Assembly: GCA_963662155.1 (NCBI GenBank)
Contig: OY759262.1
Span: 61,107,010 to 61,171,009 of the forward strand
Direction: 5' to 3'
Origin: Lamellibrachia columna
Lineage: Eukaryota; Annelida; Polychaeta; Sabellida; Siboglinidae
Length of the DNA stretch: 64,000 nucleotides
The translations under genes and the position numbers were made by a program. Within the stretch, counting starts at the first letter, position 1, and each line of letters begins with the position of its first letter. Shown here in pieces: positions 8,501-35,800 of the stretch. The notes under the pieces are model-generated. The model did not search any database. It was not told the DNA's origin and was given only the letters and a program-made list of their open reading frames with translations.

Positions 8501-8817
8501 CACCAGTTTCCTGGTGCAATTAGCAGCGTTTTGTGCAACTGGGTCATTTCCGAAAAATGTGGCATGTATAGTGCAAGAGGTTGAGGGGAGACAGTGCTCC
8601 CAGATCCCATCTGTCTGAATCATGTGGCAGTTGAAGTGGAAGATCCTGCACATGGGGTAACTGTGTAGCCTGTTAGGGGGTCCCAGTCTTCTGCACTGTG
8701 CCACTGGCACAAGGATGTTCACCTTTCAGTCGAATAGAACTGGATACATGATTTATTTGTAGCAGGCTTCAAACTAGGCACAGTTATTTTTTTATTTGAC
8801 TAAAACATTAATTATCC

Positions 8818-8848
<31 letters not shown>

Positions 8849-11800
8849 GTTGTTGTCTGGAGGACGGGTCCCATGACAGTTGTTGTCTGGAGGACAGGTC
8901 CCATGAAAGTTGTTGTCTGGAGCATGGGTCCCATGACAGTTGTTGTCTGTAGGACGAGTCCCATGACAGTTGTTGTTTGGAGGACGGGTCCCGTGACAGT
9001 TGTTGTCTGGAGGACGGGTCCCGTGACAGTTGTTGTCTGGAGGACGGGTCCCGTGACAGTTGTTGTCTGGAGGATGGGTCCCGTGACAGTTGTTCAGTTT
9101 TTCTCCATATGTCATACCCTTTACAAGTTCAGGAATTCTCATCCCAAATTTAGACTCAAGTTGTTTAGGATGCATCATGCATGATCCCAAATGTACTTGC
9201 ATAATACAATATTTTGCATTACTAACTGACATAATTGAGGTCTGAATTCGCATTTGTTTGCAAAATGTGATACCCCTGAGCTTGGATTGATAAAGTAACC
9301 AGCTCTTTCACTTCAGTCTGTCTACATTTTAGTCAGCTCCAGTAATAATAAATTCATTTTCATGAGTTATGGCTGGTTTAGACTGTGTGTTAGGGAAATG
9401 CGTTTGCACCTGGCTGAAAGGCTGGTTGTACATCATTCTCATGTGCAGAAGTAGTGGGCAGAAAAGACTAGGACTTCCACTGGTTGGAGGAATATTGATT
9501 GTAGAAGGTTCTCCGGTATGAAGCACAGTAATCGTTGCCACATCTTCACTGGATGGCAGCAGCATCGGAGATATCAGCATATTTTAGAGTCTGTAAATAT
9601 TAATTAATTAATTAAATTAATGGGTGTATACCCTTAGAGGGTAGAACTGGCACCCTTAGAGGGTAGAACTGGCATAGTGAACCATATTGAACATGCGTGA
9701 AGTGTCATTTTTTTCTCGAGAAGAACACATTACACATGAAAGAGTTTCATGTTGTGTGAGGGCGTATTCCCCTGTCTCCTTCCATTCAATGTGGTCTACT
9801 GTTTCTGTTGAGAAATCTGATCAGCCCTGTTGTCAGCTGTTCACTGGTTCACACAGTTTTTATGGCCCACCCAAGTAACATCGAAAGCACAGACCAAGTG
9901 TTGCTTCCCATAGGGGAGATAGCAACAGGGATGAAGGGCGATTACCCAAACCCGCTCTTAGTGTAGAGTTCAAGCACATGGAGGATGGTTTCAGACTCAG
10001 TCAGTGCATAGACTGTTGTGGGGTAGGGTAGAGGTGGTGGGGCGATGGTGGGGTTATTTGACATGTAGCCTTAGGGGTAAAATATGGTGCAATTTGAGAT
10101 GCACTGTACTAATGACTTTCTGGGAACCTGTTGGGGCAACAAGGGTATGTGTTCAACACACCCTGGAAATGGCATTAATAATTTATTTTAACCTTAGGGC
10201 ATGACCCTCACTGGGGCCTTGCCTCACCGGGGCCTCACTTCACTGGGGCCTCATGTTCTGATCACAAATTTGTGTTTGAAGTTACTCAGGGTTGGCAGCA
10301 TTGCACGCAGGCCAAATTGTGGATGGTTAGTAAAATAGTTATGTTAAGCAATAAGTTATATTCAGTTTCTATGCCAACCCAGGGAACATCCAAGTATCAA
10401 TGCCACCCTCTAACCTTTACCTTCTTGTTATTACCCCTTCTTGTCATTGACTTTCTTCCACTAATTAACCCTCTTTTAATCCTAGTTCCTCCTCTTGTTC
10501 CTCATACTAGCTATTCTTTTCCTTCTGCCACAAACACTTGTTATTCTAGTCATCATACCCCTGTAGGGCTTGTCAGCCTCAATCCAAATAGAAACCTTAC
10601 CCTGCTGTCATTCTTGGGCCTGTCAGCACCAATATACCCTGCCTCTGATAGACACCCCGAGTCTGTAGTCCTCTTGTCTTCTGGGTGGTCAAAAGTTCAT
10701 GGTTCACTGGTGTAATTTAAGTTGTTGATTGTTGTAAACATGGTTTACATTATGTTTTTGGTCTGACTAGGAATACTAAGTCTTAGTCCAATTTGCAGAA
10801 ATTCTTGATTGACATTGTTAGAGAACTTATATCAGTATTATATTTAGAAGTTGACATTGAAATCCTTTCCTAAACATTTCTTATGCATAAATGCAGTTGT
10901 AAGCAATACTTATATTACTCTTAATCCTTTGGTGCCACTGTCGTGCACACCTGCTAACAGACTGCTAACAGAAATCCATAAGATTGCAAACAAACCCGTA
11001 AGATTATCTATGTCTGCTGTCTGCCACACAAGCTCAGAAGTATCCCATCATGCAAACTGGGATATATTGATTGGATCTCGCCAGACTTTTGCACAGCTAA
11101 TTGCACACAGCTCAGATATTTGCGACAGTCACTCTACAGATGTGTTTTAAACTGATGATCTGTTCTTTGAATGCCATTTGGCAAATTGCGGCCGTATCTC
11201 GTAATACAAAAAAGCCTTGTTCCAAATGCACAAAATCACAGGGAATGCATCCTATGTCAAATTCAGAAAATCTGTAAGATTTGTGGATGTCTTTGATGTT
11301 GTAGGCATGGATGCTGCACACCTTGATCTCAAAGCCTTCACTAAAGTCCTGCTGGGGACTGAAGGGTCTGTTGCCTTCATGCACTGTCGCTATGACAATG
11401 CGATCGCAACAGACTGGTACTTCCACGAACGCAAACTCATCAATACAACCAATGGCAGGTAGGTGTATGCACATAGTACGAGTGCTTTTACCATTGGCAG
11501 GTAAGTCTAGAAGTCCCCTTGGCAAGTAGGTGTATGCACATAGTACGAGTACTTTTACCATTGGCAGGTAAGTCTAGAAGTCCCCTTGGCAAGTAGGTGT
11601 ATGCACATAGTACAAGTACTTTTACCATTGGCAGGTAAGTCTAGAAGTCCCCTTGGCAAGTAGGTGTACACACATACTACGGGTACTTTTATCATTGGCA
11701 GGTAAGTCCAGAAGTCCCCTTGGCAAGTAGGTTTACACACATACTACGGGTACTTTTATCATTGGCAGGTAAGTCTAGAAGTACCCTTGGTACTTCGATG

Positions 11801-14800
11801 AGACTCAGTAGACTGTCAATGAAGAGGAGCTGTGTTCAAATCTACTTGCTGCCAAGAAGACTCTCAATCCAAACCGTTGCTGTAGGAATTGTGACGATGG
11901 TACTGATAGCATTTCTAAAAATCGTGATGGCAACCCAAAATTATTCTTAACGTTAAAGCCCCTAGCAACTTGTCTCCGGAAGCAGACACTAATATTAGAA
12001 GATCAGGCAGCAATACCAGGTAAAGAGACACTTCCCCATGACAGGTTGATGACAGGCTGGTCTGCTGAATCAAGGTGAGTTTACAGGTACTCCACTTACA
12101 GTAGGGGAGATTAGAGTTAACTCTATGTTTGAGGTAGAATACACTAATGATTCATCAATTGAAACCAATGCTAAAAGTGAGTCAGGCGATTCCTCACCAT
12201 GCAAAAAATTACGATTCAGTTTTAATAAAAACTACAAACTTGTCGCCCAAGCCAACCGGATTCAGTCTTCGTACGCGGAGATCCCTCCATCACTGACATG
12301 TGCTGAATCCTGCCAACCAGCAACTAGAAATTGACACACAAAAAAGCCATGTTGCACGTGTGCCATATTTGCAAGTGTACCCCTTTCTCTATTCACAAGT
12401 ATCTTTTCAGGGTGCAAAACATCCTTGGAAGGTCTCAGAATCACTGCCACTTTATTTGTCTGCCATAAACCTGGAACTAATGTAGTGATGGTTACTGATC
12501 TGTCTCCAGTGGAAGGTGAACTTATCGCGTAAAACCAACATACAGTACATGGTTCATAGTTGCTTGTACTGCCACCTGGTGTACTCTTGAAGTGTCACAA
12601 GTGTTTGTCAGTTCACTACTTTGTTGATTGTTTATTCTCAGCAACAGCTTCATTCACTTCTTGTTAAATCTCGTTAAAAAGCCTGCCTGATTTTATGATT
12701 GATATGAAAATAGAGATTTGTTTATCACTGGAAGTCAGGGGAAAGCATGGACTAACGTTTTATGCAGTACTTGTGTGTGTCATGTTGTGACACACCTTTC
12801 ATCAACGTTTAAGTCATGTTGTCTCCCAGGGACGTTTCTTTTTCACTTCACTTGACTAAGTCTGTCCCATGTCATCAAGTCTAAGATTGGCTCTTTTGTC
12901 CAAGATTGTCCCTGGTCCTTTTGTCTTTAAGATTTGTCATCATGTCCAACATTGTCCATGATCCTTTGTCTGTGACTGTCCCAGGTCATCAAATTCTCCC
13001 TGCTGGTCACTCGTCTGACCATTGTCCCTTCATTTGAGTGGTCATTAGAGTGGCCATTATGGGCACAAAGGACAAGACTCCTCAAATGTGTGACAGCTGG
13101 ACACATGGAGTCAACCGATGACCATAATTACATTGTCCAGCAGACTGTCATCTATCATCCCTCTGTCCCCTGTCACCAGGCCCATGCACAAAGCCATAAG
13201 TCACCTAGTGGTCAGATGGTCAGAGACTGGTCAGTGAGGATAACATTGACCTGATGTGTCTATTGGCCATGTGAACCCATGTATGACCAGACACAGGCTT
13301 GTGCTCTGTGTCCTGTTGTTGAGCTGGCCAGTGTTGCCTGGGTTGTAAATCATCTTCCTCAATTATCTTGTCTTGTGGCATGTATTCCTTAGTAATTAAA
13401 AATCCATCCTCAATTGATTTTGCCCATCGCGAATTGGGTTCGTTGATGCTCAGATCTGTAGTGTGTGAATATACGCAGTTGGTTTAAGAAAAGTGTGCAT
13501 ACTTTGGTGGTTAAAATTATTAAAAGAATTAGACTTGCGTGAATAGCCTTGATTAGATCGCAAAAAGTGCACTGTCGCCTTTTTCCACAGTTTCAGTTCA
13601 GTCAAACCAGAATTAATTTAATAGTTTGATAGTTTCATCAAACGTAAATAACAAGTTTTCACAAATGAGCTTTGAATGAACTATTCCCTCTCAATGTACT
13701 ATTCCCTCTGAATGTGCTATTACCTCTGAATGTACTATTCCTTCTCAATGTACTATTCCCTCTCAATGTATTATTCCCTGTGTTCATCTATTGTAGGGTG
13801 ACCGTTTTAGCCAATGGCACTCTCGTCCTTAACCCTGTCAGACAGGAAGACAAGGGAATCTACAGATGCGATGGCATTAGTCAATCAGGACCTGACCAGA
13901 CATTCACCTCGGAACTTGTCCTATCCTGTAAGTATTCTGATTTTGAATATGCGATTTTTAATAACTCATGATATGCATTACAAATAAATAAAAAGTAAAA
14001 TAATGTTGGTTGGTGTGGGTGAGTAGAATGTGGTCACATACTTAATGTGGACCCTAAAAACGATGGACTACGAACTAGTGAAGCTGGCAGCGTAATGAAT
14101 GTTGGTTGGAAGGAATCGTGATGGGAGTGGCGAGACAAGAGAAAGGTTATGGATGAGACACAGCTGAAGTGTGCTAGAGGAGTGGTAGATCTACTGAATC
14201 CACACAAGACTTTAAGATTAATAACACAGAATGGGGAAATGACTGAGAGGGAGGAAGTGGGGAAATGACATGGGAGTCTACAGACAAGGAAGTTGTGTCT
14301 AGAACTATTTCGAGTAGTCCCCCACATGTGGCCGATCGATTAAGTTGTACATTTGTAAATCTGTAAATGTACATGCAAAATCTTAAGTTTTACCCATAAC
14401 TCTTAATGGATTTTCTAAAATTTGATGGTCTAAGGGGCATACGAGGCATTCCTTAGGATTTTGTGTATTTTGAACAAGGTTTTTTGCATTATGGGATATG
14501 GCTCGCATTTGTCAAATAGCAGCGAATAACAACTCATCTGTTCAAAATACGTCGGAAGACCAAATGTCACAAAGTTAAGTACTCCGTGTCCCCCAAGAGA
14601 TTTAGTTCTTGACTTTGTTCTTCAATGAGAATTTTTCTTGACATCTTCAGTGGGAGGCCTTCATTTTTTTTAATATGACATTAGTTAGCAGAAATATTAG
14701 CCTTGCAGTGTTTTTTCATTGTTTTCCTGTTTTTGTTTTGAAACACCGCATGCTATTCTGTCTTATTCTTATTTTCATTTGTCTCGTAGACAATAAGTTT

Positions 14801-17800
14801 GAGTTAGCCTGCCATTTACAGATGATTCATCAACATTGCTAGAGGCCCAGGTTGGCATTGTCTAGTCTAGTCAGGCTGCTGACATTCAATCTTATGAAGC
14901 AGGTGCAAGACGCAAGCGGCATACTGAGGTCATTTAAAGTCTGTAATGGCCAGGCCTATTTACATGTAGCAATTTCAGTTGTGGTCCTAAATCTCCGGCT
15001 AATGAAGAAACCAGGAGGCAGGAGTGACGCAGTGATGTAAAAAGTTTGCCGATACCTCAGGGCTGACGTGTGATGTCAGGCGCAGCTGATAGGAGGAGCC
15101 ACCAGAAATTGTCTGGCGCCAATTGATGGATCAACATTCAAAGCAGAGTTGGCATCATGGCAGAAATGTCTTCATAGTTTCCTATGAAGTCTGCTGCATT
15201 CTGCGTAGTTCTGTGTGTTTCAGGCACCATGTCCACTCTTCTCTGTTCCTGCTAGTTTCCATGAAAAAGTCACCATTTACCATAAAGAGAAACTAACTGT
15301 TAACACCAATATAATTAGATTCAGCCATCCAGAACTTGGCCACCTGGCCATTTCGGTGAAAGTGTGCTGATAATATTTGTAGTGACATGACTGTTTTTGA
15401 TTAATGACAACACGGTGATTATCAAGAGTTGAAAGCCGGCTCTCAAGCTGTGAACATTTCAGTTAAAACATAGTCGCCACATCTTCATCAGTGGTGCTTA
15501 ATGGCACAACTGAACCCTATGGAACTGCACGCTTCCAATCTTGGTGCAGATTGGGTCCATGCACAAAATGCATCGTTTTACACCCAAAAGTCACACTTTC
15601 GTCCCTTATAACTTGGTTCAAATGACATCCTTACCAGTATTGTTTTGTATAAATGTTGAAATATAAAGTTAAAATTCCTTTGCCATTTGATTAAACACAT
15701 TGCGAATCAAGTTTGTTGATATTCAGGTTTGTAGGGCATGAATAGTTTAAGTAATATGTCAATAGTTTAAGTAATATGTCAATAGTTTAAGTAATATGTC
15801 AAAAGTTTAAGTAATATGTGCAATCAGTTGAATAAAAGAAAGACTTTTGTTAAAATCATTGAAAGAATTTACTTTGATCGTTATGTCAAGTAACTTTTCT
15901 TCAAACTTAAAGATGGTTATATAACACAAGACAGTATAAGCAGACAGACAGTGTAGATTGGATATATGAAACAGATTCATTCTCCCAAGGATCATAAATA
16001 GCACAGGTACAAATTACCTGCTGACTGTGTAGATGTAAGCAGCATAAAGTTGTTGTAACACGCAGTAGATGACTTTCAGCCAGAGGGTGTGCCACACATA
16101 GAGATGGGGTAGATTGGAGTGTGCAGGTGTACATGTAATGTAAGACTCCATAAAGCAATGAGGTCTGTGTTCACAGGTTATCTGGGACGTGCAACTTTGG
16201 ATGGCAGTCTTGTTAAATAACTGGGAGTAAATGAATCAGAAGTGGAAACACATGTGCAGTTAACAGTATTTATCAAGCATGTTGTATCGGCAACTTCTTG
16301 TAAATTAAAATGGCTTGTTTATAGACCTATAGGGTGTAATTACTTGGGTATGTTTGTGGTAGTTATAAATACCCGGTGTGAGATCAATTAATGACATGCT
16401 CTCAGTGGATTTAGGTAGTTATGCTTTGTACATGTGTACCTTGTACTTTGTACATGTGTACCTTGTACTTTGTACATGTGTACCTTGTACTTTGTACATG
16501 TGTACCTTGTACATGTGTACCTTATACTTTGTACATGTGTACTTTGTACATGTGTACCTTGTACTTTGTACATGTGTACCTTGTACTTTGTACATGTGTA
16601 CCTTGTACTTTGTACATGTGTACCTTGTACTTTGTACATGTGTACCTTGTACTTTGTACATGTGTACTTTGTACATGTGTACCTTGTACTTTGTACATGT
16701 GTACCTTGTACCTGTGTACCTTATACTTTGTACATGTGTACTTTGTACATGTGTACCTTGTACTTTGTACATGTGTACCTTGTACTTTGTATATGTGTAC
16801 CTTGTACTTTGTACATGTGTACCTTGTACTTTGTACATGTGTACCTTGTACTTTGTACATGTGTACCTTGTACTTTGTACATGTGTACTTTGTACATGTG
16901 TACCTTGTACTTTGTACATGTGTACTTTGTACATGTGTACCTTGTACTTTGTACATGTGTACTTTGTACATGTGTACTTTGTACATGTGTACCTTGTACT
17001 TTGTACATGTGCATCTTGCTATAATAAAATACAGCCATGTAGCAAAATATATTGAAAATTTTACTATTTCGGAATACCTTAAATAATATGTCCATAAGTA
17101 ACTTGTTTTCACAGATATTACCTCATGTATTTGTGATATTGATTTTACACACCTTTTTGTATACTGGCTGTTTATTTTAAACTCTTGTCAGCAATGTGCA
17201 TAAATGAAACTAAAACACAAATTGAGTGAAGATGTTCAACAGACTGGACAGTTCAAATTAGTAATATTTTTAATTATTTCATAGTCAATTTACTATTTTC
17301 TTTCCATGACGTTTCTTCGACTGTTATCAGCAATCTTCTTTAGATGACTACTGCTGTCGCCATCTAGCGGTAGTCATCTGAAGAAGATTGCTGATAGCAG
17401 TCGAAACATCACGGAAAGAAAAAGGTAAACTGAATGAAATAAGTAAAAATATTACTCATTAAAACACAAATTGTTTAATCAATTAATACAAAAATAGATG
17501 GTACGAAGACAGTGCAAATTTGATAGAGGGTGTCAATATTTCATTATGAAATCCACACCGGGGGTGTTTATATTATGAAATATTGACCCAAGGGTAAAGA
17601 TTGAAGGGGTGAAAATTTCATCTCACACCAGTCAATGCTCATTTATTCAGGCATTCCTAGTTCAGCTCACAGGATATAATCAACTATAGTGTCTCTCTTT
17701 GTCAAACTGTGGCGTTCTTGCTTTGAAGCTATCCCGTCCGTCTAACAGTTCACATCAATAAATGATGTATTCATTAAATGTCAAAACAAATGTTCCATGA

Positions 17801-20800
17801 AAAAACATGTTTTTTAAGTCACTTTTATAGCATGATCTCTGATTTGGTGGCTTTCTTGAGGCAATGTAGTGCAATTGTTATGCACCAGGTGGCAGCTGCA
17901 GCTGGCTAGCCACATAATGAAATGAAAAGCCATGTTGATGCATGGACACTCTGTCTTCATATAGGAGACAGTGTCCTGTCAACAACTAAAGGTCAGTTGA
18001 CTGGATCCTGTCATCAGAATGCCACAGCTCATGTAGAGGGCACTCTCGGTAAACTTGGAGGATAGATCCTGTCCGCAACTTGTCTTACAGCTTCTAGTTC
18101 CTGACCCCATTACTCAGTTGTGGTCTTCTTGGATTTGTAATACATCATTGGATTATATGGCAGCCAACAGACTGTGTCAACAAGCCATTTCTTGTACCAG
18201 TAGTTTCTTCAACACACCTCGTGTCGCTTTTTATGCGCCTTGGCTTTTTTATAGAACATCTCACATTTCTAGATCCACGTTTCTATTGGCTATGTTCTGT
18301 CAGAAATGTGGGATGTCTCGGTGTAAGATGCGCCTGACTTGGACATTTTGGTCACATGTGTTTTGCTTGAGTAGTATTTCACACGCCGGACGGATGCGTT
18401 GGCGTAAACTCAATAAAATCTCCTTGTTCAGTTTTCAGTAGTCGAGCTTAAATAGCAGAACCTGATACCATGTTCTGCCTTTTTTTGTTAGTGACAGTGC
18501 TTTAGACCACTTCTGTAGACAAAGCAGTTTGTTTATGTTTACATGTGTATGTAATATATGCGCACAATCCTATTAACGTAACAAACATGTGAGTTAATGT
18601 TATAATCAGAATTATTCTTACATAAATAGTAAGTTGAACAAAATGTGTTCAGTGTTTGATTTCTCACCAAGATGACATTTCATGTTCCGAACAAACAAAG
18701 TATTTCCTTTCAGACATTCTCAGTAACAAGTTATTTAACACAATGTCACTTTAGTCTAGACAAGAGAAAGCATGGAAATGACTTGTGCAAACATTGGCGC
18801 ACTAAATTGGTTTCTCAATCATTTGTGACACATATAGCTTTCTGTGTGTGACTGGTTAGTATCAATGGGAAGAAGAAATAAGACTAAGTTTGAAAGTACA
18901 TCCTACATTGAATACTTAGTTGTGATACAATTACAACAGCTCAAGGAGCCATCTGAATAGAGGATTATAGAAATATGTATTTTTAATCACTACATAGCAA
19001 ATGGTCCCAGTGCAAAGCATGCTGGGATAGTAGTTGACCTGATGTACTTGTACATCTAGTTAATATTTTTATTCATGTTTTAGGAGCTGTGGTTATGCAG
19101 ATATTTACTGTTATACCATTGTTTATCCATTGACAGAAGTCTATTTTATAGAAAATCAAATTACAAATTAAATTACTTGGTCATGTGTAAAGATACATGT
19201 ATTTATCATGTGTGTCGGCCGAGTTGGGCACTGTAATGTGATGATGGAAACATGTATTTATCATGTGTGTCGGCTGAGTTGGGCATTGTAATGTGATGAT
19301 GGAAACATGGCAGTTAGAGCTGCTGACTGTCAGTCGGGAAGACCAGGGGTTGTGTCCACATACTGCCATTTTGAAACTTGGGCAATATTGTTCACCCCAC
19401 TTTGGTCCCTTCCACCTGGTAATGGGAGAAAGGAAATGGAAAAAACTCACAGAGCCAATGGTCCCGATCTACAAAAACCCAGATGGATGCTGCTTCATGA
19501 TGAAGTAAGCGCCATGAGCACCTTGTCAAAGGCGGACACGAGTGCTGTATAAGACCACATACACATTACTATAAAAGGATCATATGTGGCAGACTATTCA
19601 CGCAAAGAAAAACAGACCTAAACTGAACCAAGTTGTTAGTCAGACTAACTAGAACTGTGAGTACAGCTGCAAGCAAGTGTCACATCAAACTTCACTTAAT
19701 CTGCGAGCGAGATGGCAAACAATTTGCAGAGGGATTACAACAGCCTCTCTGATATTGATTACTTTGATTGTTGACTGCAGACCCTCCTATCGTCTACAGC
19801 AGGTCATTTTTCCTGTTCATTATGACTCTGTGCAATCAGGTTTTTATCTCCTCTTTGTGAATGTTGAATCGATTCGGTGAAGTGTCAATTCAGGAGTCAA
19901 TTCACTGAAAAAGGAGCTTCCTGACCACATTTGCCTCTCAAAGGTTGAGCTAGTGTATTTCTTTAGATGTTGGTATGAGTGTGTGTTGATAAAAAATATC
20001 ACAACCATCATTCCAAGACTTTCCCCACATATTTAAACTTCATATTTAAACTTCATATTTAAACTTCATATTTAAACTTCATATTTAAACTTCATATTTA
20101 AACTTCATATTTAAACTTCATATTTAAACTTCATATTTAAACTTCATATTTAAACTTCATATTTAAACTTCATATTTAAACTTCATATTTAAACTTCATA
20201 TTTAAACTTCATATTTAAACTTCATATTTAAACTTCATATTTAAACTTCATATTTAAACTTCATATTTAAACTTCATATTTAAACTTCATATTTAAACTT
20301 CATATTTAAACTTCATATTTAAACTTCATATTTAATCTTCCTCAATTCATTAGTGACATTGTGAATCAGTTTCATTGATGCTCCAATCTGGGGTGTGTGA
20401 TTACTTAAGTAACATGTACAGTCAGAATAACAGTGTATACTCTGGTTAAAATCATCAAAACAATAGACTTTGATTGTTAGATTAGGTAACTTGAGAAAGT
20501 GTGAATAGCCTTATATGTTTAACAAGAGATTTAACAAGAGATTCAACAAGATTGTCATCTGAGGCAAAGGCCCAGATGACAAGTGGACAAGGAAGCCATT
20601 GATTTATTAAGAGTCCAACAGTTTTTTCATCTATGTGTAATGAGATATGCGGCAACCTTGTTTTTAAACATACTCACGCTGCTAGCATTTACACAATCTG
20701 TGGATAATTTATTCCATTCATTTATTGTTCTCAGTGAGAACGAATATTTCGTCATATCCAAGCTAAATGTTATATGTTATAGTATTGTTCTTTTTTCACC

Positions 20801-23800
20801 ATATTTTGATTGGAATTGGTTAAAAATAATGTAACAGTTTGTTCAATGATTTCATCAAAAATAAGTAAAAAAAATTGTACAACGAGCAAGCATGTCATAG
20901 TGGATGTCATAGTGAATGTTGTAGTGGATGTCGTAGTGGAAGTCATAGTGGATGTCGTAGTGGATGTCATAGTGGATGTCGTAGTGCATGTCGTAGTGGA
21001 TGTCGTAGTGGATGTCGTAGTGGATGTCGTAGTGGATGTCGTAGTGGATGTCGTAGTGGATGCCGTAGTGGATGCCGTTGTGGATGTCATAGTAGATGTC
21101 GTTGTGGATGTCATAGTGGATGTCGTAGTGGATGTCATAGTGGATGCCATAGTGGATGTCATAGTGGAGAGGTTAAATTTTTCATGAAATGAGTATGAAA
21201 TGAAACAAGCAAAAAATCTAATTGATGAATGACCTTTAAGTCTTAGAAACACATAATATTATCTATTCTTAGGTGTTGTGACTGCTGAAGACAAATGCTG
21301 ATGTCGTGACTTAGAACCACTGCGAAGTGTGAGCCACAGGCTGATCAATATTTAGATTGGTTCTCTTCTTCAAAAGAAATGTGTTTTCCGGAAGCTTCTT
21401 TGTTATTAGTGAAATGGCCCCCCAAGGCTAGTAGACTTGGCAGCAGTAGCCATAGACTTCAGCATTGGTTGAACTGATGAAGGGTGATGGAGGAGATATT
21501 CACCATCAACATTGTTGCCAACTGTTCTGTCATGTCCTCATACATTGTTGCCAACTGTTCTGTCATGTCCTCATACATTGTTACCAACTGCTGTGTGGTC
21601 CACCATTCTTTCCATAGCTTGTGTAGTTAATCATCTCATTTGTTTGTCCATCTGTCTGGCTGTCTGTCTGTCCAGTCTATCTATCCTTATGTCTGTCTGC
21701 CTGTCCATTTATCAACTTGTTCGTTTGTCCGTGTAACATGGGACGCTGTGGCACAGCAGTCAGAGCTTTGGACACTCAGTTGAGGGGTTCGTTCTACCTG
21801 GTATCTGTGTCAGGGGAAGTAAGAGATCCCACACATGGGGTAAATAAAAGATCCCACACATGGGGTGAATAAAAGATCCCACACATGGGTAAATAAAAGA
21901 TCCCACACATGGGGTAAATATGTAACCTGTCATGAACTCAGTAACTCTAGTATAACAAAATATTCAGCAAGTTCAAGGTGGGGTTAACTAAAAGAAGTCT
22001 CATGGTTTGCAAATGTGCCGTTTTCCCAGTTCGTAGATATAGATATTTTTTGTGGATGCACCCACCTGCCGTCCGTCCGTCCGTCCGTCCGTCCGTCCGT
22101 CCGTCCGTCCGTCCGTCCGTCCGTCCGTCCGTCCGTCCGTCCGTCCGTCCGTCCGTCCGTCCACCCCTGTGTTACATGTTATAGAAACTTAGGCTGAGAT
22201 GTTGTGGACATGCAACAGGGACAGATCATTGCGTTATTTCCTGGTTGATTAATGAATGAAGTATCAGCCTTGTTGAGATAGAGCCATCTTATGAAGATTT
22301 TGTGCACCGTGAAAAAAATATCTATATCTATGAACTGGGAAAATGGCACATTTGCAAACCGTGAGACTTGTGCTATGCACAAGTTTTAATGTCTGGTTGC
22401 TGGTTGACAGTAATTTTGCACACAGTGTGGGTCTGCCTGACATTGGTTTCAAAATTATGTGCCGTCCTCAACATAAGTGTTTCCCTTTTCTCCAGACCTG
22501 AATCCCCTGAAGGCGAGTTCGTTTGAGCCGAAGCCGCCGCGGAACCAGCCCAAGGTGGTGCCCGTGGACCAGCAGTACGAGGTGCGGTGTATCATCCCTA
22601 AAGGACTGCCCGCCCCAGCACTGCGGTAAGTAGTTCTGGGGGTTTATATGTAGCTGTGAGGTAGAGTACGAGGTGCAGTGTATCATCCCTAAAGGACTGC
22701 CCACCCCAGCACTGCGGTAAGTAGTTCTGAGGGTTTATATGTAGCTGTGAGATAAAGTACGAGGTGCAGTGTATCATCCCTAAAGGACTGCCCACCCCAG
22801 CACTGCGGTAAGTAGTTCTGAGGGTTTATATGTAGCTGTGAGATAAAGTACGAGGTGCAGTGTATCATCCCTAAAGGACTGCCCACCCCAGCACTGCGGT
22901 AAGTAGTTCTGAGGGTTTATATGTAGCTGTGAGGTAGAGTACGAGGTGCAGTGTATCATCCCTAAAGGACTGCCCACCCCAGCACTGCGGTAAGTAGTTC
23001 TGAGGGTTTATATGTAGCTGTGAGGTAAAGTACAAGGTGCAGTGTATCATCCCTAAAGGACTGCCCACCCCAGCACTGCGGTAAGTAGTTCTGAGGGTTT
23101 ATATGTAGCTGTGAGATAAAGTACGAGGTGCAGTGTATCATCCCTAAAGGACTGCCCACCCCAGCACTGCGGTAAGTAGTTCTGAGGGTTTATATGTAGC
23201 TGTGAGGTAGAGTACGAGGTGCAGTGTATCATCCCTAAAGGACTGCCCACCCCAGCACTGCGGTAAGTAGTTCTGAGGGTTTATATGTAGCTGTGAGGTA
23301 AAGTACGAGGTGCAGTGTATCATCCCTAAAGGACTGCCCACCCCAGTACTGCGGTTAGTAGTTCTGGGGTTTTATATGTAGCTGTGAGGTAGAGTACGAG
23401 GTGCAGTGTATCATCCCTAAAGGACTACCCGCCCCAGCACTGGGGTAAGTAGTTCTTGGGGTTTATATGTAGCTGTGAGGTAGAGTACGAGGTGCAGTGT
23501 ATCATCCCTAAAGGACTGCCCGCCCCAGCACTGGGGTAAGTAGTTCTGGGGGTTTATATGTAGCTGTGAGGTAGAGTACGAGGTGCAGTGTATCATCCCT
23601 AAAGGACTGCCTGCCCCAGCACTGGGGTAAGTAGTTCTGGGGGTTTATATGTAGCTGTGAGGTAGAGTACGAGGTGCAGTGTATCATCCCTAAAGGACTG
23701 CCCGCCCCAGCACTGCGGTAAGTAGTTCTGGGGGTTTATATGTAGCTGTGAGGTAGAGTACGAGGTGCAGTGTATTATGCCTAAAGGAATGCCCACCCCA

Positions 23801-26800
23801 GCACTGCGGTAAGTAGTTCTGAGGGTTTATATGTAGCTGTGAGGTAGAGTACGAGGTGCAGTGTATTATGCCTAAAGGACTGCCCACCCCAGCACTGGGG
23901 TAAGTAGTTCTGGGGGTTTATATGTAGCTGTGAGGTAGAGTACGAGGTGCAGTGTATCATCCCTAAAGGACTGCCCACCCCAACACTGGGGTAAGTAGTT
24001 CTGGGGGTTTATATGTAGCTGTGAGGTAGAGTACGAGGTGCAGTGTATCATCCCTAAAGGACTGCCCGCCCCAGCACTGCGGTAAGTAGTTCTGGGGGTT
24101 TATATGTAGCTGTGAGGTAGAGTACGAGGTGCAGTGTATCATCCCTAAAGGACTGCCCGCCCCAACACTGGGGTAAGTAGTTCTGGGGGTTTATATGTAG
24201 CTGTGAGGTAGAGTACGAGGTGCAGTGTATCATCCCTAAAGGACTGCCCACCCCAGCACTGCGGTAAGTAGTTCTGAGGGTTTATATGTAGCTGTGAGGT
24301 AAAGTACAAGGTGCAGTGTATCATCCCTAAAGGACTGCCCACCCCAGCACTGCGGTAAGTAGTTCTGAGGGTTTATATGTAGCTGTGAGGTAAAGTACGA
24401 GGTGCAGTGTATCATCCCTAAAGGACTGCCCGCCCCAGCACTGCGGTAAGTAGTTCTGGGGGTTTATATGTAGCTGTGAGGTAAAGTACGAGGTGCAGTG
24501 TATCATCCCTAAAGGACTGCCCGCCCCAGCACTGCGGTAAGTAGTTCTGGGGGTTTATATGTAGCTGTGAGGTAGAGTACGAGGTGCAGTGTATCATCCC
24601 TAAAGGACTGCCCACCCCAGCACTGCGGTAAGTAGTTCTGGGGGTTTATATGTAGCTGTGAGGTAGAGTACGAGGTGCAGTGTATCATCCCTAAAGGACT
24701 GCCCGCCCCAGCACTGCGGTAAGTAGTTCTGGGGGTTTATATGTAGCTGTGAGGTAGAGTACGAGGTGCAGTGTATCATCCCTAAAGGACTGCCCGCCCT
24801 AGCACTGGGGTAAGTAGTTCTGGGGGTTTATATGTAGCTGAGAGGTAGAGTACGAGGTGCAGTGTATCATCCCTAAAGGACTGCCCACCCCAGCACTGGG
24901 GTAAGTAGTTCTGGGGGTTTATATGTAGCTGTGAGGTAGAGTACGAGGTGCAGTGTATCATCCCTAAAGGACTGCCCACCCCAGCACTGCGGTAAGTAGT
25001 TCTGGGGGTTTATATGTAGCTGTGAGGTAGACTGCTGAGTTTGCCTGTAACTTGGTGGTAATTTTTCTCAAATCTCTATAACTCCCACAGGGGGCTTTGT
25101 AAATAGAAAATCCAAAAACATTTGGATGTGGGTGCGGGAGGTGAAGGGTCCACTGATTATTTAGTATTTTCCAAGTTAGGGGCTTTGTAAAAAAATTCAA
25201 ATTATAAAAAAAATTGGGTATGGGTGAAGGGTTCACATGGATAAAAAAATTATAAGGTATATTTTTTACAATACTTATATTTTACAACAATCGGCATTCC
25301 ATTCACTGCATTAGCAATGCGTATACAGTGCATCCAATTTTCCATTTTGTTGTTTTTGGATGGGGTGTTGGTGGATGGAGTAAATCCTATCCAATTGTTT
25401 GGAAAATTTGAATTTTTATATTTACAAATCCCCTTACAGTGACCACACTAGCTCCTGAACGAAGTATTAACATATCAAACTAAGCTGACAACATAGCCAT
25501 ACATTACCAGCCAACATAGCGTCTGCAACACAAACCAGCAGACGTAGCCACATGTTGCAGACAGGAGATGTCTGGAGACGGTGCAGTAATATGCAAACTA
25601 GATTCTAAAAATTGTTTCCTTAGGCATCAAACGTCAGCTATAATTAATGAAAGCTTTATTAAGTTGCACTGAGGTGGATTAACTGGGGATCATCCGTGTA
25701 TCATCCCAGCTTTAATCCAGCACAATATCAGCAAAATCCCTTGTGTAAATCTACATAATTAGTCATCTTCATGATTTATTCCTCGGCCTGAAGCAGTTGG
25801 TTTTTACACCATGCAGTGTTCGGGGAACTTCGTGTGTGCAACATTCCGTGCTTACAGATGAATATTTGTACATCAACAACATGACATGCCTCGCAGCCAT
25901 ACATTATCTACTGCCAATGCTTCATTAAGTGTGCATGCGTTTTGCATTATTTTATCTGAAAACCTGAATGCCATACTAATGAAAGTGTCCCAAACTTGCC
26001 ACGTCATCGTCATCGGAAACCTCATGTTTTACACAATTTGCATGCAGTTTTTATCTTCAAATATGTTGATAAGCTAAAAAGTAACTTTGATAAATTGGTA
26101 AAAAAGGTAAATTGGAATTAATTTAAGCTAGTAGGTAGTTTTAGTTGCTTTTTATGCATCTGGAATCAGTCTTCTTATGAACATATTTGATGAATAAACT
26201 GCTAAACTGAAGCTGAATTCAGATGTGGCAAAAGAAGTTGCAAACAACTGCATGATACAGCCGTGGCTAAATATTACAGTTGTATATATTTATATATATG
26301 GTTAGTTTTAATACAGTTTATTTGCATTTACTGTGTGTTATGTTTCATATTTTTATTTTATTTTTATAAAGCGCATCGAGGTTTAGAAGAAACTGTACTA
26401 TATAAAAATATATTGATAAGTATTATACAGCCTGTATGTGTGTTTTGGTGTCTCAGTTAATTGGTATCTTGATCAAGTGGTATCCAGTTGGGTTGTCATC
26501 AAAGTTTGCCAATTTTTTGGAAGTATTTGTCTTGGATGAGAAATAAAAACCGCACCTTCCACCTGGTGTCTATGAGGAAGTGAGTGATTCCACGTAGGGG
26601 GTGGACCCACATAGGGGGTGGACCCACATAGGGGGTGGAACCTAAGCTATTGTAGTCACCGCCACACCTAATGATACATCAGAGTAACATTCTTTACCTG
26701 TTACAGTGCCACAGGTAGTATAGTTAGCAAATGTTACACCTGTTACCTGAGTGGCAGTCTCTGCCGCAGGTGGGCTCTTTGATCTCACTTGATTGATGGC

Positions 26801-29800
26801 TTCCTCTAGTCACAGAGGCTTAACATTGCATAATCTGCCTTAATCACTGTTTGTGTGCGTGCATGCATTTGTGCGTGCGTGCATGGATACATGCATGCAT
26901 GTGTGTTGGGGGGCCATTTTGATCAGTGTCATTACATGATGGGTGATTAGTGTCAGTGACTGATGACTGGTAAATATGTGCATTGTTACAGTTATTTTTT
27001 GCCTGATTGATAAACGGCCGTTTTCTTGTTCTGACTTAAACAACATCAAAATACATTCTTTGGTGCAGAAAAACTTTTTGAACACAGAATTGAGTCCGAC
27101 ACACCCCTGCCCACCTTACTGGCCCTCAGGCGGCAATCAACTATTATGTTTTTAAACAAGCCATCATTTACACAGCCAGCTTGTAATTTGTACCTGTTTT
27201 ATTTATGATCCCCCTGGGAGAAGGAATCTGTTTATTATATGCAGTGTACCTTGTCTGTCTACTTGTACTGCCTTGTGATTGTAGAAACACTGTTTGATGT
27301 GTCTTTATCCTTGGTGCAGGTGGGAAGATCCGAGGGGAGTGGTGGTGTCGGATGGGGAAAGGGTGTCAGCCAGCGAGGGACTGCTCCGGATCAGAGGGGC
27401 GCAACCCTCCGACTCGGGCAACTACACGTGTGTGGTACACAACCTGGCAGGGGAACAGCGCAGGGCAGTCTGGCTCGTCGTGTCAGGTGGGTCCAACCTA
27501 GTTGGTCAGTATGGGTGCATGTTTCTCTCGTATGACATATACCTTTCGATTGTGTTTGCACCACCCAGACACCCAGGCACCCACCCACATCCAGTGTTTT
27601 GTGGATTATTAAATTTTTTATATTTAAGAAGCTTCTTTTTGCCTTTGGTTACAGACTTACCCATATGGACCTGTGCTATATGTGATCACAATTTTGCACT
27701 GATCTGAATGTCCCAGGAGGCCATTCAACTGGTGCTGTTTTTATTGCGTGGACCAACAGTAAGAATTGTGGAGAGTTAATGCAAGAGTCACTTATGTATT
27801 CGACACTGGTCCAGCTACAAGGGACATGATTCTCCGGAGAATGAGCCCGAAAAATAGTTCCTTGGATCTGGTTATAAACACTGCAGGTTACTGCTACTAC
27901 TAGAAAGACATGGATCGTTAAATGGCATCAACATAATTTCTAGGCATATGTGCTAGCATGAGGTTCACTGTTGTAGTACCCCCCACCATCTCAGAGCCCC
28001 CCCAGAGCACCCGGGTGGAGGAAGAGGGGACCGCGGAGTTCAGATGTAAGGTTCAAGGAACCCTCTACCCTGTGTCTATGGTTACCTGGAGCAAGGACGA
28101 CATCCCCCTTGCTGTGAGTAGTGGCATGGAGTGATCTGTGTGATCACATAGCCTGAGACTGTTAAGTAGTATGTGATCACACCACTCAAGCTGTTAAGCA
28201 GACTGTTTGATCACAGTACCAAAGCTGTGTTAAGAAGTATGTGATTTACCCATCCCAGACTGTGTTAATTAGTATGTGATTTTGCCATGCTGACTATTAA
28301 GCAATGTGTGAGATTATGGACACATACGTAGGACTGTGTTAAGCAGTGTGTGATCACACCAGTCAAGACTGTGTTAAGTAGTCTTTCACATTACACTACA
28401 CATGAAACAGTCCGTGATCACACCACCTGAGGCTGTTAAGTAATATGTTAAGCAGCCTGTGTGATCATCACGAGATGATGTGTATGTGTTGTGCTTTCAG
28501 CTGTCGCTGTCGAGGTTTGTGACAGACCAGCGCCAGGGGACTCTGAAGATCTACAAGGTGCGTCTATCTGACGAGGGCAACTACGCCTGTGTGGTGAACA
28601 CGACTGGACATCCGCCAGTCGTTTCCACCAATGCTCATCTCTACATCAAAAGTGAGTGCTTCTCAGTAGTGTCGCACACAGTGCTCATGCACTGTCATGT
28701 GTCTCAGATGATCAACGTATGGTCTCTTACAGTAACACTAATACTAATGATGCCATCTTATGTAGTGTCAGTATCCGTCTAGATAAGGGGCATGTGATAC
28801 TTACACCATCATCAGAACAAGTGCAACCCATTTCCATGTGTGGGGTATTTTACTTCCCCTCGCATAGACACTAGGTAGATGGGACCAACGGCTTTTAGTG
28901 TCTCTTCCAAAAGACACAGGCAACGTGGGGTGAATGAAATTGCCCAAGTTTCGGAACAGCGGTAGGTGGACTCCCTGGGCCTCTCAATTAACAGTCTGGG
29001 GCTCAAATTGCCGAGTTACTGCACCCCAGGTTGTCTAACACCACAATTGGTCTTTTTCCGCAACCACACTAAAGATGGACCCGTACCACTGTGAGGTCCT
29101 CATGAGGTCCTCATGCTACTGTTGCACTTCTGCTTCAGTTGGATCCGTGCCACATCTGGACTAATGCTATCGCATTTCCCCACTTGTTATATATCCCAGT
29201 AGGTCGTTTGACTGGTGCTACTATTACTACCTGGGCCAACCGTAAGAATTGTGGAGAATTAATGCAGGACTCACTTATGTATTCAACCCTGGCCCTTACA
29301 GTCAAATGATTCCCCAGAGATTGAGCTGAACTAATAATTCCTCATCTGTGGTTACTGCTGCTGCTGGAAGATCTTTCAATGGCATTGGCATCTTGCCAGG
29401 CATATGTGCCTTTCATAGAATGTTCCTTTTATGGCTCTGATGCTGCATGGAGAGAACAGATGCATTCATTTGCAGCCATAAACTTGTTATCTTGGTCATA
29501 CAATAAACATCAGGAATGTCATTATGAAAATAACATTTGAATGGGATGGCCTTAATTGTCACCAGGCAGGCTGATATTGCCAACATATTAAATAGGATGG
29601 CCTCATAACTAAACATACTAATATTACCTGCATATTATGTATATGGGATGACCTTATAACAACAAAGGGACAGAGGGAATAATCCAGGCATATAACAGGG
29701 GAGATAATCCAGGTAAATAACAGTGGAGAAATCCAGCCAAATAACAGTGTGGATAATCCAGGCAAATAACAGCAGGATAATCCAAGCAAATAAAAGCAGG

Positions 29801-32800
29801 GAGAATCCAGACAAATAACAGCAGAGATAATCCAGGGAAACAAAAGTGGGGATAATCCAGACAACTAACAGTGGGGATAATCCAGGCAAATAACAGCGGA
29901 GATAATCCAGGCAAATAACAGCAGGGATAATCCAGGCAAATAACAGTGGAGATAATTCAGGCAAATAAAAGCAGGGATAATCCAGGCAAATAACAGTGGG
30001 GTAATCCAGACAAATAATTAACGAATAATACACTGTTAGTTGATGTCACGAGAGTGTTACCAGCCAGATAACATCACGAGTGCCGGGCCAGTTTCACAAA
30101 GCATTTGTACCATACAAAGGAACTGATGCAGATATTTGATTGCAGATTACGTAAATCAGAACAATAACTGAAAACACACAATGCATTCGAACAGTCGTAT
30201 GCCAACGTGCGTAGTTGGTCACGTTCGAAATTATTCAAATGTTAGCTGGATTCCAATCAGGTAGTCTTATTACAGTGATATATCCATCCAGATAATGCAT
30301 GGTTGTCTCGTTCTGAGAATCCTATGTTAAACATATGATTGTGAACATTGAGTGGATATCGGCATGGCTAGTCGTTGTATAACAGAGTGGATAATCCAGA
30401 CAGATAACAGTGGGGATAATCCAGACAGATAATAGCAAGGGTAATCTAGACAAATAACTGCGGGAATAATCCATGCAAATAACAGTGGGGATAAACCAGG
30501 ATATTTAAAAGAACAGGACTGCTATTGTCTATAAACCGAAGGGACATAGGTGTAGCAGGTCAAGTGAACCGCTAATTGTCAATATGTCACCTTCCATGTC
30601 ACATGTCAATTACAGAGAAACTCAAGTTTCGTCCACCACCGGTCAACAGAAAACTAGAACTCGGTTCCATCGCAAAGATCCACTGCAAGGCCGAGGGTCA
30701 GTCTGAACCGGACATCCGCTGGCTGAAGAACGGCAAGCCAGAGCTGCCGTCCCACGTGGACGACATCCAGGGAACTCTCATCTTCGATAAGGTGTCCCGC
30801 TCCGACACAGGGACGTACACTTGTGTGGCTTCTAACAGCCAGGGTGTCATCAATAAGACTATATCAGTGGAGGTGGTAGGTGAGTCGACTCTGGCCCTAA
30901 AACTCACAAATCAGGCCCTAAAACTCTAAAATCTAACCATGAGACTGTAGTTTCTGCTTTTCGCATAAGACACAGCTGATTGGCTCTAACACATAATTCA
31001 TGCTTTGAAGCACATGCTGTGTGTTGCAAACTGACTTATTGTGTACATGTTGAATAATATGATGGTAAATACTTTATTGATTTTGTATAAAGCGCCAAAA
31101 AGCAATTGCTGTAAATGTGTATATATGTATTGAGTCACCAGCTTGACAAGTAATTACTTATTCCATTTCTACTGACACCATTTGTATTTTGTAAATAGGA
31201 TGAATAAATTATTATTGCTGCAGTGAAACCCCAGTTCAAAGTGCGGCCACTGAACACAACAGCCTATGAAGGCTACCCAGTGATGCTGCACTGTGTAGCC
31301 ATTGGGGAACCCAAACCCACGATACAGTGGGACAAGAACAGCTACTCCCGCATTGACACCCGGCGCTTCAAGGTAATCATAAAATAGCAATAATAGAACT
31401 TCTATAATGCCAAATTCAGGGACCTGAGGTCAGAGGTGCAACATCTGTGGCACAATTCCTACACTCATTATACTAACAACACCATCTAGAGCTAATGCAG
31501 GACACAGACCACTACCAGGGCAGGCTACTGGCCTGGGTGGGCTACCGGCCTGGGTGGGCTACAGGCCAGGGTGGGCTACCGGCCTGGGTGGGCTACCAGC
31601 CTGAGTGGGCTACTGGCCAATTCTTCAATTGGGGTAGTTCATGTAATATTTAAGTTTAGGTGTATAATTTAATGTTGGTCAACATTCTTTGGGTTCTCAT
31701 TATGAGCAAAGGGGTCTTTGTTCATTGTTTGATTGGATATATGGACATTTTCCGTGGCAGTGTGGGATATCCTGAGATCTCTGTTTCAGATCCTCAGCAA
31801 TGGCTCCCTGTACGTGTCTGAAGTCTACATGGAGGACACAGGAATGTACGGCTGCACCGCTGGCAACACAGGCGGGCTCAAGAGGACTGAGGTCTACCTA
31901 CATGTCGCCAGTAAGTCTTGACATATTGCTACTTAGTGTGAGCATTTTTACTTGAAATTATTTACTTAAAAAGCGCTATTATGGTATTATATGGTATTAT
32001 TATTATTATTACTTCATAGACATGCAGTTAATGCAACTAGGATGGCACTTGTGATTATAATAATAATTAACATTACTTATTCATGATAAACTTTATATTG
32101 CATTATTTTTTAAATCTGCACAATTACCTATCACTTTCATCCAAACAACCAGCATATTTGCTTTCTCTGCTCACACCTGCAAGACAGCCCAGACAGCTTC
32201 GATCATCTGATTCTAATCTCTAATCCCATTGTTAAAACAAATGACGGAACTAGAGCTTTTTCAATTGCTGCACCGACTCACTCCCTGTTAATGTTAAGTC
32301 TGTAGGAAACATAACAACATTACGCCGTAAACTAAAACCCCACCTGTGTAAACTTGCTTATCCCCCATAGCTGCCCAGCGTACCAATCCAACTGTTTACA
32401 ATTGGAACTACTTATCCTCTATAGCTGCCCAGCGTACCAATCCAACTGTTTACAATTGGAACTACTTATCCTCTATAGCTGCCCAGCGTACCAATCCAAC
32501 TGTTTACAATTGGAACTACTTATCCTCTATAGCTGCCCAGCGTACCAATCCAACTGTTTACAACTGGAACTACTTATCCTCTATAGCTGCCCAGCTCACC
32601 AATCCAACTGTTTACAATTGGAACTACTTATCCTCTATAGCTGCCCATCGTACCAATCCAACTGTTTACAATTGGAACTACTTATCCTCTATAGCTGCCC
32701 AGCTCACCAATCCAACTGTTTACAATTGGAACTACTTATCCTCTATAGCTGCCCATCGTACCAATCCAACTGTTTACAATTGGAACTACTTATCCTCTAT

Positions 32801-35800
32801 AGCTGCCCAGCGTACCAATCCAACTGTTTACAATTGGAACTACTTATCCTCTATAGCTGCCCAGCGCACCAATCCAACTGTTTACAATTGGAACTACTTA
32901 TCCTCTATAGCTGCCCAGCGCACCAATCCAACTGTTTACAATTGGAACTACTTATCCTCTATAGCTGCCCATCGTACCAATCCAACTGTTTACAATTGGA
33001 ACTACTTATCCTCTATAGCTGCCCAGCGTACCAATCCAACTGTTTACAATTGGAACTACTTATCCTCTATAGCTGCCCAGCGCACCAATCCAACTGTTTA
33101 CAACTGGAACTACTTATCCCCCATAGCTGCCCAGCGTACCAATCCAACTGTTTACAACTGGAACTACTTATCGATTAGGAACTGCTTAACCATTTTTGTT
33201 TTGGTGCGATGCTGAGCTTGGGTCTCCCGAGGATTTTAGCGCAATAGAAGTGTTTTGTATTGTATTGTATAAAATATATAAATTATGTTTGTGAGTTGTG
33301 AAACAGAAGCATACAAATACATATAGATGCATACAGATGCATACAGATGCATACAGATGCATACAGATGCATACAGATGCATACAGCAGCTCTTAAAATT
33401 AAATAACTACATGCTTTGAAAGCAAATTACGTTATCTCGTTTTCTCAAAAGAAAACGCTTATGTGAAGAGAAATATTTCCAGCTTCTGGTTGAAGAAAAT
33501 AAATTGGTGTGCCTGTGCAGCTTCAAAACATCTCTAGACAACTGTAGAAATCACTGATGCGGGCGATGTACGTGCACAGCCAAAACTGGAACCTATTTTG
33601 CCAATTGAGAAGGAACATAAAATAGATGCTGTTTCATTGAAACATTAAAGAGTAAACGTATCGATGAGACACACGTCATGATCCTGCTTGTGACATGTTT
33701 CCACCGTTGTCCACCAGGTGCCGAGATGTACGGACGACTCGCACCAGGGGCTCAGCCAGCGGAGAACTTCAACATGATGCGCACTATAGTGATCGCGGTG
33801 TGCTGTGCTGTGGCCTACCTGGCAGTGGTCATTGGTCTGACCGTCTACTGCAGCATCAGACTGATACGGGCAAAGAACCTGCGTAAACAGGAAGATGACC
33901 CATGTGAGCCGCGGTCGCATAGTGAGTTCAACTGCTCCACTACTCTCATCTCAACTATAACTAACTTCTGCAAAAAGCCCAAGATATTTTTTTTTTAAAT
34001 TGTAGATAGTCCCTCGCTCTGATGATGACTTGTCCGTCCCTGTTCGTGATGTCATGCTTAACAATTCTGGTCTGTTGCACCTCTGACCTCAAATTTCTTA
34101 AGACTTAGGCACTATACATATAGGAGCTTTATTAGTATGTAGATGTTGATGTAAGTGCTTTTTATTGTAAAAAGTAATAGAACTAGAGGGCAAAAAGTAG
34201 TGTTGATAAAAACCAGTGCAGATTGGATACAAGAAAGTACTTGTTCTCACAGAGGACAATAAATAAATTGAACAAATTATCTACTTATTGTGTAAATGCT
34301 AGCAGTGTGAATATGTGAAAGAAATTGACTGATATACCTGTATATGAAAATATAGGTATGGAACACATTCATATTGAAGAGTTTAGTTACCTTTTAGAAT
34401 CTGTTTATGGTCGACAGAATTTGACACTGACTAAAATGGTCACAGAAACTCCGTCAAACATACATAGAGACTTTGAAATGTAACTTAATTTTCATCAGTA
34501 GGCTGTCCAGAGATGAAAAAATTTGTTGGACTCAATGCAATGGTTTCCTTGTCATCTCGAGCTGGTTGCATTGAATGACAAGTTTGTTGAATTATGTTAA
34601 AATCTGGTTAAGTTATGTTAAAATTTTCATACTCTCACCTATTGTATCTTGGTGTCCCAGGTGTGGAGAACGGAGCGGTGCCAACGGAGCGTACGGAGCT
34701 GATGGACAAGAAGGAGCGCGACTCCTCCATCATAAAGAGTGATGACACCCGCTCCCACGTCTCAGGAGTCAGCTCCCATCCCTCCCACTCCTCCCACAGT
34801 TCCCGCAGACTCGGCTATGACAAACTCTCCTTCCCCAGACACGACCTCCAGACTCTGCGCGTTCTAGGTGGGTACATGGGTCAGATGTAGGGTGACCCAA
34901 TATATGACTTAGTTGGGTCTCATTATAACATCTCAATTAACTATTACAGTAGATAATTTCTGTTGCCACCATCCAGAATGTACGATTAGAGGAATTCATT
35001 TAGGATTATAATAATAATAGATTTAATTAATTTTTATATAGCACAGTTTCATTGAAGCTTCAATGCTCTTTTACATAAAAAGCATTACATAAAATTATAC
35101 ATAGAAAATACATATATCCTAGGACATACTGTGTTAAAACTAGTGAAATAAATTTGAAGGTAAAACTAATTAAAAATTAGCAATACTATCAATAAAGCTA
35201 CACACAATTAATTGAATAAAATGTTATTGATAAGTTAAATTAAAAGGAACTTGGCAAGAATGCAAACTACTCATTATCTTCTATGTAAAATTAGTATTGT
35301 TGTGATTGTTCATAGGATTACAATTAATAAGTATCAGTGCCATTTCTCATTTTTAATGTACATAATGTTCTGCCAAATAAAGGGGTGAGGCTAGTTCATG
35401 TATCCCTTTCCACATCTCACTATCGGCAGCCTTCTTCCTTGTCTTCCTCCTCTGCTTTTTCACACCCCTCTTAATGCAGTCTCCCCATCTTAATTGTGGT
35501 CTATCCCTTTTATTGTGGCGTTGCTGTTTCATTGCCTCTGCTTTTTGGTAGTCAGCTTCTTACTGTTCTTCCTGTTGTGCTGTCCTGTAAATTTAGCATT
35601 AAAAAATCTCTTGCAGGAGTGAAAATTTACATTTTACTCAGAAAAAATCTGATTGTTTCCAGGCAAGGGTCACTACGGCGATGTGTTCCTGGCAAAAGCT
35701 CATGGGATATGTGATGGAGAGATCGAGACGCTGGTTGTAGTTAAGTCGCTGCTCACCAGGGACGAGCAGTATGTGGGCGAATTCCGGAGAGAGGTCGACA

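Follow-up and report, generated by a model that had tools for sequence, protein, structure and literature searches.

A minisatellite of 27 units repeats the exon 4 splice donor of PTK7 in the annelid Lamellibrachia columna

The minisatellite of the human IFI6 (6-16) gene is said, going by the title of a 1995 paper of Turri, Cuin and Porter, to provide multiple splice donor sites in the transcript, and a mirage in the Adh3 gene of amphioxus was reportedly described by Canestro et al. 2002. Mirages are minisatellite-like tandem duplications of an exon–intron boundary, which in amphioxus affect both types of boundary and contain the splice signals in many copies (PMC3087553). Reverse transcription PCR (polymerase chain reaction) suggests that they do not disturb regular splicing, and a route from mirages to new introns has been proposed (PMC3087553). 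Their units measure 150-160 bp in BflGb6, 157 bp in BflGb9 and 10-72 bp in Adh3, and BflGb6 haplotypes hold 6 and 3 copies (PMC3087553). Lancelet PGBD5 and troponin C add further cases, and non-interference of mirages with regular splicing is described there as well (PMC3902484). Human segmental duplications contain variable internal tandem repeats, on average 30-bp units in four copies in the paralogues, some of which lie at an exon–intron boundary with possible novel introns (PMC2812944). Here we describe an array of this kind in the annelid Lamellibrachia columna, where the end of exon 4 of the PTK7 gene and its donor are repeated in tandem. The window, i.e. the whole stretch of DNA that was analysed, comprises 64,000 nt (assembly GCA_963662155.1, contig OY759262.1, positions 61,107,010 to 61,171,009 of the forward strand). 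The mitochondrial COX1 of the genome shares 94% identity with its closest record and 88% with a Siboglinidae cluster, followed among named matches by further annelids, which fits an annelid host with a probable relationship to Siboglinidae; a kinase record with 84% identity likewise points to a close relative.

The repeated-donor structure in PTK7 is real, and the features that define it are the following:

7781..36819, plus strand: PTK7 gene model of 14 exons, the N-terminal part (first exons) lying outside the window
22496..22625, plus strand: PTK7 exon 4 of the 14-exon model, 130 nt, ending with ..LPAPALR in phase 2, first half of an Ig domain
22576..22666, plus strand: unit 1 of the array, comprising the final 50 nt of exon 4, the native donor GCG/GTAAGT at 22,626 and 41 intron nt, R codon kept
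22667..25031, plus strand: units 2-27 of the 91-bp array, the donor being GTAAGT in 25 units and GTTAGT in one (23,354)
27320..27486, plus strand: PTK7 exon 5, whose acceptor AG ends at 27,319 and which joins donor 1 in frame (CG/G TGG)

Tandem Repeats Finder places the array at 22,574-25,031, with a period of 91, 27.0 copies, 97% matches, 0% indels and a score of 4510. The unit-by-unit comparison counts 27 units from 22,576, the final base of unit 27 (25,032) belonging already to the flank. Every unit combines the 50 terminal nt of exon 4 with the donor and 41 nt of intron, and the units follow each other head-to-tail without indels. The donor GT stands at 22,626 + 91n and is present in 27 of 27 units. 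GTAAGT is found in 26 of these donors and GTTAGT in copy 9 only; the contexts are GCG/GTAAGT (18 units), GGG/GTAAGT (eight units) and GCG/GTTAGT (one unit). Column 11 of the unit is G in copy 1, and an A at this column is common to copies 2-27. These results confirm an earlier note on this DNA, which had given the coordinates, the 91-bp period, the 27 copies, the one degraded donor and the G-to-A change shared by all copies except the first. In the 880-Mb assembly (30 pieces) all 27 matches of a query of 161 bases, placed across the exon 4 end, sit at the PTK7 locus, with repeat counts from this search being lower bounds. A dispersed satellite or transposon was rejected as source of the unit, since the query found no copy outside this locus.

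The assignment of the gene to PTK7, which had been proposed in the same note, is borne out by the 14-exon model, the match of its kinase part to PF07714 and the named homologues. Among the best 120 of 1,455 homologues, the top full-length ones are inactive tyrosine-protein kinase 7-like proteins of the nemerteans Tubulanus (53% identity) and Lineus (52%). All 13 introns of the model are of the GT-AG type and its exons form a single frame of 913 residues; the single upstream acceptor assumed before is part of this model. The joined exons 4-5 match Ig_3 and I-set, and the PDB matches have Robo2 first and fly-type otk (6s9f) lower in the list. An in-frame junction to exon 5 at 27,320 is formed by donor 1 only. 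Reading through donor 1 yields CGG TAA (LPAPALR-stop), therefore an mRNA from every later donor would contain a stop, and donor 1 is confirmed as the only one to keep the frame, as the earlier note had expected. The immediate stop itself is unremarkable, because a phase-2 intron beginning with GTAA, GTAG or GTGA always yields one. The read-through of exon 2 also stops at once (NGR-stop).

We consider it quite probable that the PTK7 array is a mirage, tolerated as a by-product of minisatellite growth, and that the gene is spliced from donor 1. A 91-bp segment that happened to straddle the boundary between exon 4 and intron 4 would have been duplicated in tandem, and the array would have grown to 27 units by unequal exchange, with all growth on the intron side. 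Due to the native donor being first and beside the intact exon, exon 4 would still be defined as a 130-nt exon. Splicing would presumably join donor 1 to 27,320, copies 2-27 would leave with the intron, and the remaining donors would have little effect. The likely rule is exon definition, in which the first-transcribed donor closes the 130-nt exon; later donors would make exons of at least 221 nt, each with a stop.

Four points weigh against this reading. The choice of donor could not be made by strength, because U1 pairing is as good at the array donors as at the native one (duplex energy −10.9 kcal/mol in 18 units, the native one among them, −11.9 in eight and −7.0 in one). The tolerance of 27 units is extrapolated, since the described globin mirages have few copies (6 and 3). 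Such arrays can reportedly be used, as the title of Turri and colleagues ascribes multiple donors to the human 6-16 minisatellite. An own-species transcript that would show use of donor 1 was not found, with no homologue above 53% identity among the best 120 of 1,455. P0001 (99% identity) was rejected as such a transcript: it includes residues encoded by the intron that precedes exon 14 and is therefore genomic.

Downstream of the native 5′ splice site the array provides 26 more copies of it, with near-identical flanks, all within a single intron for which the gene model has one acceptor. Whether the spliceosome takes the first, exon-defining copy however many rivals follow is an old question, which such alleles make directly measurable, and if only donor 1 is used this would be strong natural support for exon definition. 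A literature search on splice-site competition returned no paper.

In copies 2-27, 2.4% of the sites deviate from the majority unit. The 27 units represent 19 distinct sequences and include five groups of identical units, some of them non-adjacent (5 = 8 = 19; 13 = 17 = 22 = 24). The mean difference between units decreases from 3.9 at lag 9 to 2.58 at lag 14, the largest lag examined. The identical non-neighbour units and the similarity at lag 14 are what block duplication and unequal exchange would give. At the codon of column 11, three of 17 aligned homologues have R (Lineus, Tubulanus and P0123), seven have K, five of these being named molluscs, and seven have some other residue, while Q is absent. 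The Q codon in units 2-27 therefore looks derived, which supports the proposal of the earlier note that a single altered duplicate gave rise to copies 2-27.

Copies 2-27 show 11 variants over the 50 exon-like columns and 7 over the 41 intron columns, and 8 of the 11 exon-half variants are nonsynonymous. The exon-like halves thus vary as freely as the intron halves, and a coding role for the later copies is not supported. Across the same copies GTAAGT shows 1 change versus 3.7 expected (P = 0.12), and the 9-base donor shows 9 changes versus 5.5 expected, eight of which are the same C-to-G at −2. These counts give no clear sign that the extra donors have been either preserved or disarmed by selection.

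In the single haplotype analysed, the PTK7 array shows three traits of a mirage. Its unit spans the exon–intron boundary of a real gene, its copies carry the splice signal, and it shows concerted evolution inside with the edge unit excluded, seen in the groups of identical units, the block similarity and unit 1 alone having G at column 11. Like the amphioxus mirages, the arrays of L. columna are boundary-spanning tandem duplications with splice signals, which affect both boundary types and several genes per genome. They differ in belonging to another phylum and in size, with 27 units in PTK7 versus 6 and 3 in BflGb6. Its 91-bp unit compares with the 150-160 bp of BflGb6, the 157 bp of BflGb9 and the 10-72 bp of Adh3. 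The human repeats resemble the PTK7 array in being minisatellites in genes, some of them at an exon–intron boundary, but have ∼30-bp units in four copies and represent differences between recent human paralogues (PMC2812944). Among the papers listed by literature searches no case outside amphioxus and humans was found, and the passages considered of a tubeworm genome paper do not mention boundary repeats (PMC9921365). The kind of structure is already described; new here are the size of the array, the annelid host and several companions in one genome, by which mirages are extended from amphioxus to an annelid.

A second donor array lies at exon 2 of the same gene, and a further array precedes exon 3:

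11305..11458, plus strand: PTK7 exon 2, native donor CAG/GTAGGT at 11,459
11453..11790, plus strand: second donor array, 67 bp x 5.0, beginning 6 nt inside exon 2
13675..13779, plus strand: array of 18 bp x 5.8 (AATGTACTATTCCCTCTC), with its end 18 nt short of the acceptor of exon 3, which is excluded

Intron 2 of PTK7 is framed by arrays at both ends. The exon 2 array holds five perfect CAG/GTAAGT sites (11,501 + 67n) and four weaker CAA/GTAGGT sites. A test for shared 14-mers, which took up to 3 kb of adjoining intron at every donor and every acceptor of the PTK7 model (13 each), found copied boundary sequence at donors 2 and 4 only.

Similar arrays were found in other genes of the genome. 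The survey comprised 83 exon matches with fetched DNA, namely 64 of 154 kinase matches (PF07714) and 19 of 19 ABC-transporter matches (PF00005), on stretches that partly overlap; boundaries were placed by weight tables. Together with PTK7 this gave 68 donor and 71 acceptor ends, from which 8 and 16 unscored ones, respectively, were dropped. Seven of the 60 scored donors lie inside tandem arrays: PTK7 exons 2 and 4, a kinase exon in locus L040 (55 bp x 3.1) and four ABC-transporter paralogues (L060-L063), which share the same exon end and a 77-78 bp donor array of 4 to 12 units (x 4.1-12). Because of these paralogues the seven cases represent four independent loci; the paralogues themselves are a ready series of donor-array lengths. 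Of 55 scored acceptors two are inside arrays, both in L055, one of 32 bp x 3.2 and one of 38 bp x 61.9:

4,387-6,773 of the reversed locus, minus strand: L055 kinase gene, ∼62 tandem 38-bp units with acceptor-like TGCAG/GTGYCAA

The 38-bp array ends 7 nt inside a likely exon, and the strict acceptor word is matched at 47 places. Acceptor-side repeats in L059 and L061 were left out of the count, their matches starting at profile position 1. Arrays in L033 (37 bp x 2.0) and L056 (16 bp x 8.2) start at the donor of the matched kinase exon itself and therefore repeat GTATGT with little or no exon sequence; they were not counted among the boundary-spanning cases. With about one scored donor in nine inside an array, counting paralogues and PTK7, this small survey would suggest that exon-edge minisatellites are common in this annelid.

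Tandem arrays make up 24.9% of the window (60 merged arrays) versus 17.1% of the 269 kb of fetched loci, which partly overlap. They cover 25.3% of the PTK7 intron bases, but only 58 of 2,743 exon bases. When the arrays were shifted circularly, at least two of the 13 PTK7 donors were spanned in 77% of the shifts, with two observed. The position of arrays at PTK7 donors thus needs no special cause, and enrichment of arrays at these donors was rejected. Tandem donor words showed no clear enrichment genome-wide: AGGTAAGT in three copies with 42-72 nt gaps gave 2,073 hits versus 2,018 for the reversed pattern, and CAGGTAAGT in three copies with 30-60 nt gaps gave 563 versus 467, where the counts are overlapping hits and not arrays and the AGGTAAGT pattern also catches AAGT microsatellites. 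The PTK7 array also suggests that splice sites are frequently copied as bystanders where a genome is rich in minisatellites.

Selection might nevertheless shape where arrays enter exons, permitting this more often at donors, since transcription reaches a native donor before its copies, whereas copied acceptors lie ahead of the native one. Measured from unrefined profile-match ends, arrays occupy 8.6% of the final 30 exon nt at donors, 13.9% of the 30 nt that follow the donor and 15-17% further in; at acceptors they occupy 3.0% of the 30 nt that open the exon and 8.3% of the 30 intron nt before it. The excess of 7 of 60 scored donors over 2 of 55 scored acceptors points in the same direction but is not significant (Fisher P = 0.17), so that a strict asymmetry, although proposed, was given up. 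Moreover, four of the seven donor cases are paralogues, the two acceptor arrays belong to one gene and one of them has ∼62 units, and amphioxus mirages occur on both boundary sides. We therefore regard such an asymmetry by selection as a tentative idea that is rather unlikely to be correct.

A bolder view, for which we see only a slim chance, is that exon-edge arrays are so common in this annelid that its genes regularly carry tens of nearly identical splice sites per intron, in arrays of variable length. PTK7 and L055 would then be dosage series, in which the number of units shifts splice choice and mRNA output. If the frequency of the survey holds, the genome would be a library of natural splice-site copy-number alleles.

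The earlier note had gone further for PTK7 and suggested that the array could act as a decoy or copy-number-tunable dampener, in which later donors would compete with donor 1, stop-containing mRNA would decay and array length would set the output of PTK7. The 25 further GTAAGT donors, with a U1 match equal to or slightly better than that of the native one, and the stop reached at once from any later donor would fit this, as would the multiple donors for which the human 6-16 minisatellite is reportedly cited, by title. However, the extra donors show no clear sign of selection, the position of the array is at chance level, the same structures occur in unrelated genes and at acceptors, and the amphioxus mirages are reported not to disturb regular splicing. 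The proposal is thus unsupported: the sequence offers nothing in favour of a dampener, which we rate as very unlikely.

Following the amphioxus proposal, the units could also serve as feedstock for new exons or introns. Between TATGTAG/ and /GTAAGT each unit contains a 63-nt frame-keeping stretch as a possible cassette, which is open in 25 of 26 copies, and a similar model has been stated (PMC3087553). The openness is mainly due to 50 nt of real coding sequence, and the copies are without coding constraint. Adjacent cassettes would be separated by an intron of 28 nt, which is shorter than any animal intron known to us, and copies would have to be skipped because this gap is too short. The 28-nt gap and the poor pyrimidine tract (8/17) speak against present use of the 63-nt stretch, and we hold a nursery function of the array to be highly improbable. 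It is just as improbable that the assembler expanded a short array, as the regular period might suggest, given 19 distinct units in a block pattern, a window free of N, an assembly of 880 Mb comprising 30 pieces and similar arrays of various lengths elsewhere in the genome.

Other parts of the window were noted in passing. On the minus strand, exons at 46777-50025 resemble the RNA polymerase subunit POLR1C by eye; one of three tested stretches gave a weak, sub-cut-off match to RNA_pol_L and two gave none. A perfect 1-kb microsatellite, (GGGA)251, occupies 50112-51115. At 53383-54183 identical repeat rows recur 655 bp apart, so that a stretch of about 655 bp has seemingly been duplicated in tandem. 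A 345-bp unit present 1.9 times with 99% matches at 41816-42471 represents a recent tandem duplication.

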